Assembly (NCBI RefSeq): GCF_000702445.1
Contig: NZ_JNIF01000004.1
Span: 1,240,001-1,304,000, forward strand
Source of the DNA: Bryobacter aggregatus MPL3
GTDB lineage: Bacteria; Acidobacteriota; Terriglobia; Bryobacterales; Bryobacteraceae
DNA: 64,000 bases
Direction: 5' to 3'
The notes beneath the pieces are model-generated. The model worked only from the letters and a program-made list of their open reading frames with translations. It searched no databases and had not been told where the DNA came from. The translations under genes and the position numbers were made by a program. Positions 25,311 to 27,915 of this stretch are shown here, in pieces. How positions within the stretch are numbered: position 1 is the first letter of the stretch; the number at the start of each line of letters is the position of its first letter.

Positions 25311-25346
25311 ACGAGGTGCTCCGTTATCCTGGCGAAGGAGGTCATG

Positions 25347-25790
25347 ATGAAACGAGTTATTGCACTAGGATTCGTCTGTTTTGCCCTATGCGCGGAAAAT
25401 GCGCCCTTGGTCGAAACACAGTGGAGATTGAAGCAAGTTGCCGAGGAACCCTACACTCCAGGCAAGGGACAAAAGAAGCCCTACTTAATTCTGAAGGCGC
25501 AGGGAAATCATGTCATTGGCTTTAGTGGCTGCAATCGCCTGACGGGCAGCTACAAATTGATCGGGACCAAGCTCGAGTTCGGACCTGTGGCGGGCACCAG
25601 GATGGCGTGCGCACAAGGCATGGAGATCGAGATGAAGTTCCTGCAGATGCTCCCCATGGTGAAGACGTGGAAGGTGAAGGATCAGGGGCTCGATCTGTTC
25701 GATGCAACCGAGCGTAAGATCGGACATTTTGAAGCGGCGAGCGAAAAGGAGAAAGAGCCCGAGCCGGAAAAAGCGAAGCAGAAGAAATAG
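25347..25790 (+). CDS. META-domain (HslJ-like) exported protein
   Basis: Two adjacent ATG codons (25344, 25347) follow the strong Shine-Dalgarno AAGGAGG, and the second has the better spacing (5 bases). The product has about 147 residues with a signal peptide (VIALGFVCFALCAEN). The META core is visible as TQWRLKQV, GFSGCNRLTGSYKL and TRMACAQGMEIEMKFLQML, matching HslJ-type domains. The C-terminus is a highly charged Lys/Glu tail (EKEKEPEPEKAKQKK). Family members are linked to heat or drug resistance without a known activity. Confidence 0.88.
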   Translation: MKRVIALGFVCFALCAENAPLVETQWRLKQVAEEPYTPGKGQKKPYLILKAQGNHVIGFSGCNRLTGSYKLIGTKLEFGPVAGTRMACAQGMEIEMKFLQMLPMVKTWKVKDQGLDLFDATERKIGHFEAASEKEKEPEPEKAKQKK

Positions 25791-25797
25791 GTCCCAT

Positions 25798-26067
25798 GTG
25801 GCAAGCCTGCGCTTTACTCAGAACATCCAGCGGCACGTTGCCTGCCCCAATCTTCAGGTCCCAGGCAAGACACTGCAAGAGGCGCTCGATGCCTATTTTG
25901 CGATCCACCCGCGAGCGCGCGGCTATGTCCTTGATGACCAGGGCGCGCTGCGCCAGCACATGGCGATTTTCGTGGACGGCGAGCAGCTACGGGACATATT
26001 GCATTTCAGTGATGCGCTAAGAGAAAATTCCGTTGTGGATGTTGTACAGGCTCTCTCTGGAGGATAA
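25798..26067 (+). CDS. MoaD/ThiS-family ubiquitin-like carrier protein ending in Gly-Gly
   Basis: The start is taken as GTG 25798, six bases after an AGG and seven bases after the META gene stop, which gives 89 residues beginning MASLRFTQNIQRHV. The beta-grasp features of MoaD/ThiS are present: an N-terminal strand, a helix (TLQEALDAYFAIHP), a strand with IFVDGEQL, and a C-terminal GG directly before the stop (QALSGG). In MoaD and ThiS this tail is adenylated and converted to a thiocarboxylate. No E1-like or molybdopterin-synthesis gene lies nearby. The gene is followed after 8 bp by the BNR propeller gene. Confidence 0.82.
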   Translation: MASLRFTQNIQRHVACPNLQVPGKTLQEALDAYFAIHPRARGYVLDDQGALRQHMAIFVDGEQLRDILHFSDALRENSVVDVVQALSGG

Positions 26068-26075
26068 GAAAGCAC

Positions 26076-27194
26076 ATGAGCAAACGTTGCCATATTGCAA
26101 CTCGAAAAGGCTTGTTCTCGCTCGCACGAGGAGCACAGGGCTGGTCGATCGAGAAGTCTAACTTTATCGGGGACAACTGCACCTTGGTGATGCATGACCC
26201 GCGCGACCAGAGTCTGATTGCCGCTTTGAATCACGGCCATTTTGGAGTGAAACTCCACAAGTCCAACGACCATGGCGATAGCTGGCGGGAGATTGCCACG
26301 CCGAAGTATCCAGAGAAGCCGGCAGACTACCAACCGGCAGCGCCCCTCGAAGGCAAGGCTGCAGATTGGTCCTTAAAGCTGGTCTGGGCGTTGACGCCCG
26401 GAGGCGCCGATGAACCTGGCGTGTTGTGGTGTGGCACCTTGCCCGGGGGATTGTTTCGCAGCGAGGACGGCGGCGAGAGCTGGGAATTGAATCGGCCGCT
26501 CTGGGATCATCCCTTGCGGGAGAAATGGTTCGGTGGCGGCGCCGATCATCCTGGCATCCATTCGATCTGCGTGGACCCGAGAGACTCCAAACATGTCACG
26601 ATTGGGGTGTCTTGCGGAGGTGTCTGGGAAACCCGCGATGGTGGTGCGAGTTGGGAACATACGGGTACTGGAATGCGTGCCGAGTTTATGCCGCCCGAAT
26701 TGCAATTTGATCCGAACGTGCAGGACCCGCATCTCGTTGTCCAGTGCCAGGCGGATCCCGATGCACTGTGGGTACAGCATCATAACGGAATCTTTCGCTC
26801 GACTAACGGGGGAGCCTTGTGGCAGGAGATTGCGGGAGTCAAGCCTTCCGCCTTTGGATTTGCTGTCTCCGTCCATCCCAAGAATCCGCAAACGGCTTGG
26901 TTTGTCCCTGCCGTGAAGGATGAGAAACGTTATCCAGCGAACGGGCGCATGGTGGTGAATCGAACTCGCGACGGTGGAAAGACCTTTGAAGAGCTCACGG
27001 CCGGTCTGCCGCAAGAACATGCCTACGACCTGGTGTACCGCCATGCCCTTGATGTCGATGAGAAAGGCGCAACGCTTGCCTTTGGTTCGACAACCGGCTC
27101 TCTGTGGCTGAGCGAAGACGAAGGCGATCAATGGACCACCGTCTCCTCGAACTTGCCGCCCATCTACGCCGTTCGCTTTGAGAAGAATCTTTAG
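26076..27194 (+). CDS. BNR/sialidase-like beta-propeller protein, cytoplasmic
   Basis: The 372-residue protein has no signal peptide. Six Asp-box motifs (S/TxDxGxxW or close) are visible: SNDHGDSW, SEDGGESW, TRDGGASW, STNGGALW, TRDGGKTF and SEDEGDQW, consistent with a six- or seven-bladed propeller. Databases often call such proteins exo-alpha-sialidase or glycosyl hydrolase. I see no Arg triad or Tyr/Glu nucleophile that supports sialidase activity, and a cytoplasmic location argues against a glycan substrate. It lies directly behind the MoaD/ThiS-like gene, so a joint role is likely. Its stop overlaps the convergent ankyrin gene by 4 bp. Confidence 0.85.
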   Translation: MSKRCHIATRKGLFSLARGAQGWSIEKSNFIGDNCTLVMHDPRDQSLIAALNHGHFGVKLHKSNDHGDSWREIATPKYPEKPADYQPAAPLEGKAADWSLKLVWALTPGGADEPGVLWCGTLPGGLFRSEDGGESWELNRPLWDHPLREKWFGGGADHPGIHSICVDPRDSKHVTIGVSCGGVWETRDGGASWEHTGTGMRAEFMPPELQFDPNVQDPHLVVQCQADPDALWVQHHNGIFRSTNGGALWQEIAGVKPSAFGFAVSVHPKNPQTAWFVPAVKDEKRYPANGRMVVNRTRDGGKTFEELTAGLPQEHAYDLVYRHALDVDEKGATLAFGSTTGSLWLSEDEGDQWTTVSSNLPPIYAVRFEKNL

Positions 27195-27871
27195 GGCATT
27201 GGGTTGCCCAGGAGATTTGCTTCCATCCCGTCTCCATAACTGGCGCTGATCCGGTGCCTGCCATAGAGGAGCTTGCGCAAGATCGGAATCGGACGGCAGT
27301 ACCAACTGGCCCAACTGAGCGGAGTCTCGCCGTTGGCATCCCGCGCGTCGATCACGGCAGTGGAATCGAGAAGCATCTGAATTGCTCCTTCGTCCCCAAA
27401 CGCAGCGGCACGATGCAGAGGCGTCTCCCCTTTGGTCCGGCAATCGCGCATGAACGCTCCGGTCTCCACATTCGGAATGGTCGCCACATTGGGGTTTGCT
27501 CCGTGAGCGAGAAGTACACGCAGCACGCGGTTGCGCGCCAGGCGGTTTGCGGTGCAGAGTGCGGCGTGGAGCGGCGTTTCGCCTGTATCCTCTAAGGGCA
27601 GATTGACATCCGCGCCCTGATCGATAAGAAACTTTACCAGCCGCCAGTGGCCATGAAATGCGGCGCCATTGAGATCGAGATTCCGGCCCAGGGAGCCAAG
27701 CGTTGCCCCCTGTTGGAGCAGAAGCTTCATCGCGCTCACGTCGCCGTAATAGGCACACCACTGGAGTAGTGAGGTGCCGTCTTCATCTGTCGCGGATGCA
27801 GATTCTCCCGCGGCAATATACTCAAAAACCAGGTCGGTACGTCCTTCCAGGATTTCTTCCAGCATTGCCAT
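27191..27871 (-). CDS. Ankyrin-repeat protein
   Basis: The start ATG 27871 is chosen because the predicted promoter would begin transcription near 27909, downstream of the other possible start (GTG 27913). The 226-residue product consists of about six ankyrin repeats, for example DGTSLLQWCAYYGDVSAMKLL, TGETPLHAALCTANRL, KGETPLHRAAAFGDEGAIQML and NGETPLSWASWY, and no other domain. It has no signal peptide. It is probably a cytoplasmic protein-binding scaffold with unknown partners. It is convergent with the BNR gene. Confidence 0.88.
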   Translation of the reverse strand: MAMLEEILEGRTDLVFEYIAAGESASATDEDGTSLLQWCAYYGDVSAMKLLLQQGATLGSLGRNLDLNGAAFHGHWRLVKFLIDQGADVNLPLEDTGETPLHAALCTANRLARNRVLRVLLAHGANPNVATIPNVETGAFMRDCRTKGETPLHRAAAFGDEGAIQMLLDSTAVIDARDANGETPLSWASWYCRPIPILRKLLYGRHRISASYGDGMEANLLGNPMP

Positions 27872-27915
27872 GTTGCTGACTCTAGCACTTCGGAGAAAGC
27901 AGAGAGGCGCCACAG

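Follow-up and report, generated by a model that had tools for sequence, protein, structure and literature searches.

The closest described systems pair a small ubiquitin-like sulfur carrier with an enzyme. In molybdopterin synthase (MoaD-MoaE), a beta-grasp carrier ending in Gly-Gly stands beside an enzyme subunit, linear fusions of the two occur, and JAMM proteases accompany fused or extended carriers; in D. radiodurans such a protease cleaves the MoaD-MoaE fusion and leaves a C-terminal Gly (available passages of PMC8832034). The locus described here resembles it in these features; unlike MoaE, however, the partner is a seven-bladed beta-propeller, and the genome has a MoaD-MoaE of its own. 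CysO-CysM-Mec is similar in that our carrier is of the CysO/SAMP1 type (match to PDB 3dwg_C, E 1.3e-3), but the propeller is not a PLP enzyme, and the CysO-type gene run of this genome is a separate locus. TtuB-TtuA and the SAMPs share with it a Gly-Gly-ended carrier served by a general E1; three carriers are activated by the single E1 TtuC, and such a carrier may also modify proteins (available passages of PMC3980101). In contrast to these systems, no TtuA-like or E1 gene is conserved beside our pair, and the SAMP1 cut-off is missed. BexX-CysO 2-thiosugar synthesis likewise joins a metabolic enzyme with a carrier and an E1, and 4n6e_B is the PDB sequence closest to our carrier (E 7.9e-5); there, a general carrier is encoded outside the cluster (available passages of PMC4425429), whereas here it is dedicated and linked.

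A carrier with a dedicated enzyme is a known kind of system; the literature searched gave no case in which that enzyme is a propeller. Our pair goes unmentioned in the openly readable part of that literature, including passages of PMC1779556, PMC1949818 and PMC2716378, with subscription papers outside the scope, and the words 'MoaD' and 'operon' are absent from the text of PMC2716378, the paper on the PDB 3b7f family. Few partner enzymes of ubiquitin-like sulfur carriers are known, and a propeller, as a partner in at least eight phyla, would extend them by an acceptor of a new type and hint at a sulfur-containing product, or a modification of proteins, that has gone unrecognised. The pair also gives a handle on the 3b7f family, a crystal structure (released in 2007) without a function. 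It was described as the 'YP_299179.1 family', a 7-bladed Asp-box propeller with a tunnel given as '9 by 11' (presumably Angstrom) and a function 'not known' (available passages of PMC2716378). Moreover, the pair calls into question the 'exo-alpha-sialidase' label of public records, and the matter is directly testable, with two small soluble proteins and a known kind of E1.

The carrier and propeller genes of the window

The window, the whole stretch of 64,000 nucleotides of Bryobacter aggregatus MPL3 that was analysed (G000:C4:1240001-1304000, from a genome of 5.7 Mb in four contigs), contains the two genes listed with their main features in Table 1. The carrier has the C-terminus QALSGG, with the terminal Gly-Gly of the ThiS/MoaD superfamily, and matches Pfam ThiS (PF02597) at 28.6 bits, above the gathering cut-off of 22.5. 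Its invariant residues in an alignment of 16 sequences are F6, R12, H13, F34, Y43, D46, R52, H54, Q84, L86, S87, G88 and G89. The initial annotation of an 89-residue beta-grasp protein with a Gly-Gly end is borne out by the open reading frame, the ALSGG end and the Pfam ThiS score. The NCBIfam equivalogs TIGR01682 (MoaD) and TIGR01683 (ThiS) gave no match to the carrier at E up to 1; its top NCBIfam match is SAMP1 (NF041918), at 35.8 bits and below the cut-off of 60. The nearest solved sequences, all weak matches, are 4n6e_B (E 7.9e-5), 1v8c, 2l52 and 3dwg_C (E 1.3e-3), and among carriers of solved structure, CysO, SAMP1 and MoaD-like entries come closest. We take 4n6e to be the BexX-CysO complex, and 3dwg is presumably that of CysO with CysM.

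Eight bases separate the carrier stop from the propeller ATG (26067 and 26076), the spacing that had been annotated, and the GGAGGA of the carrier Gly-Gly codons resembles a ribosome-binding site that could serve the propeller gene. The propeller has five strict Asp-boxes ([ST]xDxGxx[WF]) and one with N for D, a fair match to the six counted initially. Its N-terminus is free of hydrophobic stretches (the top 12-residue mean hydropathy nearby is 0.475), in agreement with the earlier reading of a protein without a signal peptide, and it is apparently cytoplasmic. The gene is single-copy in its own genome, and the nearest named relatives of its product belong to the Bryobacterales / Bryobacteraceae (73% identity). 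The best sequence match is PDB 3b7f (E 1.1e-65 over residues 7-367). The fold comparison rests on a relative, L090, standing in for the window propeller: it gives Z 49.7 with 3b7f, followed by GH74 (Z ~28) and 6-phosphogluconolactonase (Z ~27). The full-length match, the common invariant residues in the alignment and the fold, via L090, place the window propeller in the 3b7f family, while Ycf48/HCF136 (NF010237) scores 14.8 bits and does not reach its cut-off of 326.

Table 1. Positions of the carrier and propeller genes, of their conserved elements and of the convergent neighbour, numbered within the window.
Feature	Position	Strand	Remarks
ThiS/MoaD-type carrier gene	25798..26067 incl. stop	+	GTG start 25798, TAA 26065-26067; ubiquitin-like, 89 aa
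Terminal Gly-Gly codons GGAGGA	26059..26064	+	appear to double as Shine-Dalgarno-like stretch for propeller gene; read from sequence
Asp-box beta-propeller gene, PDB 3b7f family, seven blades	26076..27194 incl. stop	+	ATG at 26076; 372 aa
K11 codon	26106..26108	+	conserved in 0.99 of 153 propellers, six clades
H162 codon	26559..26561	+	invariant (1.00) among 153 propellers
S179 codon	26610..26612	+	invariant (1.00) among 153 propellers
H219 codon	26730..26732	+	invariant (1.00) among 153 propellers
Q234, H235, H236 codons	26775..26783	+	Q234 0.99, H236 1.00 of 153; H235 varies between clades
R322 codon	27039..27041	+	invariant (1.00) among 153 propellers
Ankyrin-repeat gene	27191-27913	-	convergent with propeller gene, 4-base overlap at its end

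Linkage of the pair across bacterial phyla

With the propeller as query, 199 acidobacterial genomes yielded 72 matches at E <= 1.6e-38, and 70 loci were analysed; the two matches left out are G188:C557 and G128:C120, and the G128 propeller also has a carrier beside it according to the carrier profile survey. A carrier lies near the propeller on the same strand in 66/70 loci. Among the first 30, it is directly upstream in 17/17 close relatives (at least 53% identity), and a homologue is found downstream in 11/13 remoter relatives; among the remaining 40, it is present in 38. The distance is mostly within a few hundred bases, with ~1 kb at L020 and L022 and ~2 kb at L154. A search of the 199 genomes with a profile built from 16 close carriers gave 17 matches at 111-148 bits (next 56.5), and these 17 top carriers adjoin the 17 closest propellers in the identical 17 genomes (propellers at no less than 421 bits, next 247).

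Among 84,980 species genomes, 550 relatives of the propeller were found, of which the best 80 loci, chosen by propeller alone, were analysed. These best 80 of 550 belong to Acidobacteriota, Planctomycetota, Verrucomicrobiota, Pseudomonadota (alpha, beta and gamma), Myxococcota, Gemmatimonadota and Latescibacterota, and in 78 of the 80, across these seven phyla, the carrier is upstream on the same strand (median spacing 36.5 bases; within 100 bases in 66/78). The two exceptions are L053, whose contig begins 64 bases upstream, and L110, an apparent absence with 4 kb of upstream sequence present. At L066, 767 bases separate the two genes, as against the usual few tens. Actinomycetota L126 also has the pair, in reversed order, so that it is present in at least eight bacterial phyla (the seven of the best 80 of 550, and Actinomycetota). 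The check across phyla that the initial annotation had proposed therefore speaks against a pair found only in one lineage, and its view of the propeller as the dedicated partner of the carrier gains from the recurrence in 78/80 loci picked by propeller alone. The carrier and the propeller almost certainly form one functional unit.

Among 72,556 plasmid records, a carrier match was found in 11; ten are the ten with 55-60% propellers, and the eleventh is weak (33%). One of the ten is from P. aeruginosa, with a 'MoaD/ThiS family protein' beside an 'exo-alpha-sialidase'; judging from the neighbouring PmpM gene, we assume this pair to be PA1355-PA1356 of PAO1. PA1356 is listed among genes with lowered expression (available passages of PMC11538994). 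A viral origin was set aside, as two pattern scans of IMG/VR found no relative.

Neighbour clustering over the best 80 of 550 loci showed no conserved neighbour besides the carrier; the other large clusters are read as antisense or other frames of both genes, or as within-genus synteny. The ankyrin-repeat gene, which had initially been considered a possible scaffold of the system, was rejected as a member on this basis. In line with the first reading, the surrounding ORF lists, part of whose ORFs were searched, showed no recognisable molybdopterin or thiamine gene. A META/HslJ-like gene (25344-25790, + strand; Pfam META 87 bits) stops 7 bases short of the carrier gene and is possibly co-transcribed with it here; among the 80 loci, it is not conserved beside the pair. 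YciI-type and sigma-factor genes occur near the pair in 7/89 loci (P. aeruginosa L118; Hyphomicrobiales L057, L058, L071, L100, L111 and L116) and were set aside as a third conserved neighbour, the lineages being too few, as was a cysteine-desulfurase-like gene (recognised by reading) near five Paraburkholderia loci of this single genus.

Each of 96 propellers was labelled by its carrier (upstream, downstream, fused or none); a maximum likelihood tree explains these labels with 10 changes, where shuffled labels take 38.5 on average, and the 'upstream' state with 3, forced by well-supported branches. The gene order was thus reversed in evolution and the linkage kept. L128 (G080:C44) has a single open frame made of carrier, GISGG, a linker of ~20 residues and propeller, with Pfam matches to ThiS (23.8), Sortilin-Vps10 (35.7) and BNR (28) all above cut-offs; this fusion is one case, from a fragmentary MAG (75% complete, ~450 contigs). 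The carrier domain ends in Gly-Gly in 110/112 matches from the 111 loci with a carrier; the other two are a second stretch of L018 and the carrier-like partner of Nonomuraea L122, hence one real loss. Residues beyond Gly-Gly are found in 8/111 loci (L007, L014, L018, L020, L025, L028, L039, L070) and also, in the second acidobacterial set, at L129, L134, L142, L152 and L166; the L129 carrier has its middle part absent. At L018, the carrier (AVSGG), downstream of the propeller, continues in frame and stop-less into a protein that by eye is TypA/BipA-like, which is either a fusion, a lost stop or an assembly error.

No carrier match was found within 4 kb of the propeller in Streptomyces L121 and Rhodobacterales L123 and L124, nor at L019 and L026 (1.5 kb flanks), at L125, or at L138 and L155 (contig ends in propeller); the L019 genome has a 56-bit carrier-type match on another contig. 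The carrier-less family propeller of L124 (1577-3758, Rhodobacter sp. CZR27 plasmid) is divergent to egtB-egtD, of ergothioneine synthesis.

Conserved residues and predicted docking

The conservation counts of Table 1 refer to 153 propellers, excluding L123-L125, L138, L155 and L166, and the K, H, S, H, Q, H and R positions are also present in 3b7f in the residue alignment. By strand order in the model, H162, H219 and R322 stand at inner-strand starts, and K11, S179 and H236 in turns (strands 2-3); because of this order, we expect the set to point away from the Asp-boxes, on the side that bears the active site in glycosidase propellers (available passages of PMC2716378). The carrier-less L123 and L124 retain the residue set, but the Halocatena match does not, which argues that it serves the propeller's own chemistry; as propellers keep the set with no carrier nearby, the propeller may work without one.

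In 24/78 loci, carrier and propeller are in the same frame, and reading the stop as a residue turns them into a tethered pair. From 135 prepared rows, 120 entered the alignment of L090 and 119 that of L105, with 20 same-frame read-through rows in each. AlphaFold2 gave pLDDT 91.0 and pTM 0.86 for the L090 read-through, with 24 residues between the carrier and propeller matches, and pLDDT 90.2 and pTM 0.86 for that of L105, with 46 residues between, disordered. A perfect propeller with a carrier at 20 Angstrom error would have pTM ceilings of ~0.81 (L090) and ~0.77 (L105), and for L105 a pTM of 0.855 requires a carrier error of ~6 Angstrom or less. As both values exceed the ceilings for free placement, the models place the carrier on the propeller with confidence, in predictions that used nearly identical alignments and tethered chains and were judged by pTM. 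Direct binding between carrier and propeller is quite probable. The Gly-Gly tail is disordered in both (pLDDT < 50 from residue 87-88 on), and its insertion into the pocket is therefore unsupported; the artificial linker may hinder it.

A proposed sulfur-donating enzyme and its alternatives

The genome has three other ThiS-family genes, all on another contig. Its ThiS scores 69.8 bits with TIGR01683 (above the cut-off of 37.45), and a MoaD-MoaE fusion of 243 residues scores 57.0 bits with TIGR01682 (cut-off 66.15) and matches MoaE models. A run of cysteine synthase, JAMM, a CysO-type carrier ending in AGGR and a MoeB/MoeZ-type E1-rhodanese (L032, G000:C3:466312-469572) is, by its gene content, a CysO-like module in an acidobacterium; these names are given by likeness and arrangement, several scoring below the NCBIfam equivalog cut-offs. 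The only Prok-JAB match of the genome (G000:C3:468144-468476) lies inside this run, outside the window, and the window carrier is not linked to a cysteine synthase and a Mec-type JAMM as a CysO system would be. With ThiS, the MoaD-MoaE fusion and the CysO-type carrier encoded elsewhere, the carrier of the window brings the total to four, and an ordinary cofactor role is weakened.

An E1 was found in 34/34 genomes tested. JAMM matches of at least 76 bits occur in 9/9 tested genomes with Gly-Gly-extended or fused carriers and in 17/33 with plain Gly-Gly ends, a contrast (Fisher p 0.007, relatedness ignored) for which both the choice of genomes and the 76-bit threshold came after the first JAMM results, and which leaves out G137 and G187, with extra residues. 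This is suggestive of a link of JAMM with carriers that are extended or fused; a general need for JAMM is ruled out by the 16/33 plain-ended genomes without a strong match, and in the pair-bearing G033, G071, G019 and G153 JAMM went unmatched at E up to 0.001. Both E1 and JAMM are widespread enzymes, so that finding them is weak evidence.

We propose that carrier and propeller form a two-subunit enzyme built like molybdopterin synthase. A general cellular E1, here most likely the MoeB/MoeZ-type E1-rhodanese (G000:C3:467062-467766), would activate the carrier at its Gly-Gly end, and the carrier would hold sulfur as a thiocarboxylate, dock on the seven-bladed propeller and pass the sulfur to a substrate bound by the invariant Lys/His/Ser/His/Gln/His/Arg set, these steps of activation and delivery following what is known of the family. 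Such an enzyme, with the carrier donating sulfur to a propeller-held substrate, has in our view about an even chance of being the right description. The dedicated carrier, the linked enzyme, the rare fusion and the general E1 elsewhere resemble MoaD-MoaE and TtuB-TtuA, and it is by this analogy that sulfur donation by the carrier thiocarboxylate is suggested, with the balance level between yes and no; against it, the best 80 of 550 loci share no sulfur gene next to the pair.

The carrier might instead be a structural or regulatory subunit only, of a glycosidase- or lactonase-like propeller, with Gly-Gly as a relic or docking element. This fits the Nonomuraea partner without Gly-Gly, the carrier-less propellers that retain the residue set, the loci with residues after Gly-Gly, and the rank of GH74 and 6-phosphogluconolactonase next to 3b7f in fold; a relic, however, would decay, whereas Gly-Gly ends the domain in nearly all matches with one real loss, and we regard this explanation as unlikely, at roughly one chance in a handful. 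Hardly different in probability, and if anything slightly lower, is a protein modifier whose Gly is joined to protein lysines; the propeller would then be a target, an adaptor or a ligase-like factor, and a JAMM would trim the modifier and remove it. SAMP1 as best NCBIfam match, the conserved K11, JAMM in all tested genomes with extended or fused carriers and the double role of TtuB as carrier and modifier (available passages of PMC3980101) point this way; yet the SAMP1 score is below cut-off, neither an E1 nor a JAMM gene is conserved adjoining the pair, four pair-bearing genomes have no JAMM match, and a one-to-one fusion would fit a subunit better than a tag. Copper propellers (N2O reductase, thiocyanate dehydrogenase) have His ligands around the propeller channel. 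By analogy with these, the pair could form a carrier-dependent enzyme of a new class, present in at least eight bacterial phyla: a metal or an activated substrate would be bound by the three invariant His of the soluble propeller together with its Lys, Gln, Ser and Arg, and sulfide delivered there by the carrier would give a sulfur compound or a metal-sulfur centre, a reading that is rather improbable.

Far less credible than any of these is a spare MoaD, ThiS or CysO serving an ordinary cofactor or cysteine pathway: the superfamily is the same and CysO is among the closest solved relatives, but the genome already has ThiS, the MoaD-MoaE fusion, the CysO-type carrier with JAMM, cysteine synthase and E1, the MoaD and ThiS equivalogs do not match, and the carrier tracks the propeller across genomes. 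We give as little credence to a sialidase or glycosyl hydrolase with an incidental carrier neighbour. The sialidase (GH33) mark is a FRIP/RIP motif near the N-terminus. The Asp-box repeats, the label in public records and a match to NCBIfam glycosyl_F510_1955 at 62.9 bits agree with a sialidase, but that score is far below the cut-off of 175 and a FRIP-type motif is absent from the window propeller, and the 'exo-alpha-sialidase' label was rejected as unsupported; in addition, the propeller has no export signal, the carrier linkage is too consistent for an incidental neighbour, and 3b7f is 7-bladed where the tabulated sialidases are 6-bladed (available passages of PMC2716378). A loose FRIP-like pattern occurs in 7/159 propellers, in six of them at 282-286 and in the seventh, as WRIQ, at 23.

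Finally, carrier-type and ThiF/E1 matches lie in tandem in frames of ~490-520 codons at G125:C1:877590-878570, G148:C89:71288-72268, G110:C137:2998-4314 and others, which are apparent carrier-E1 fusions.
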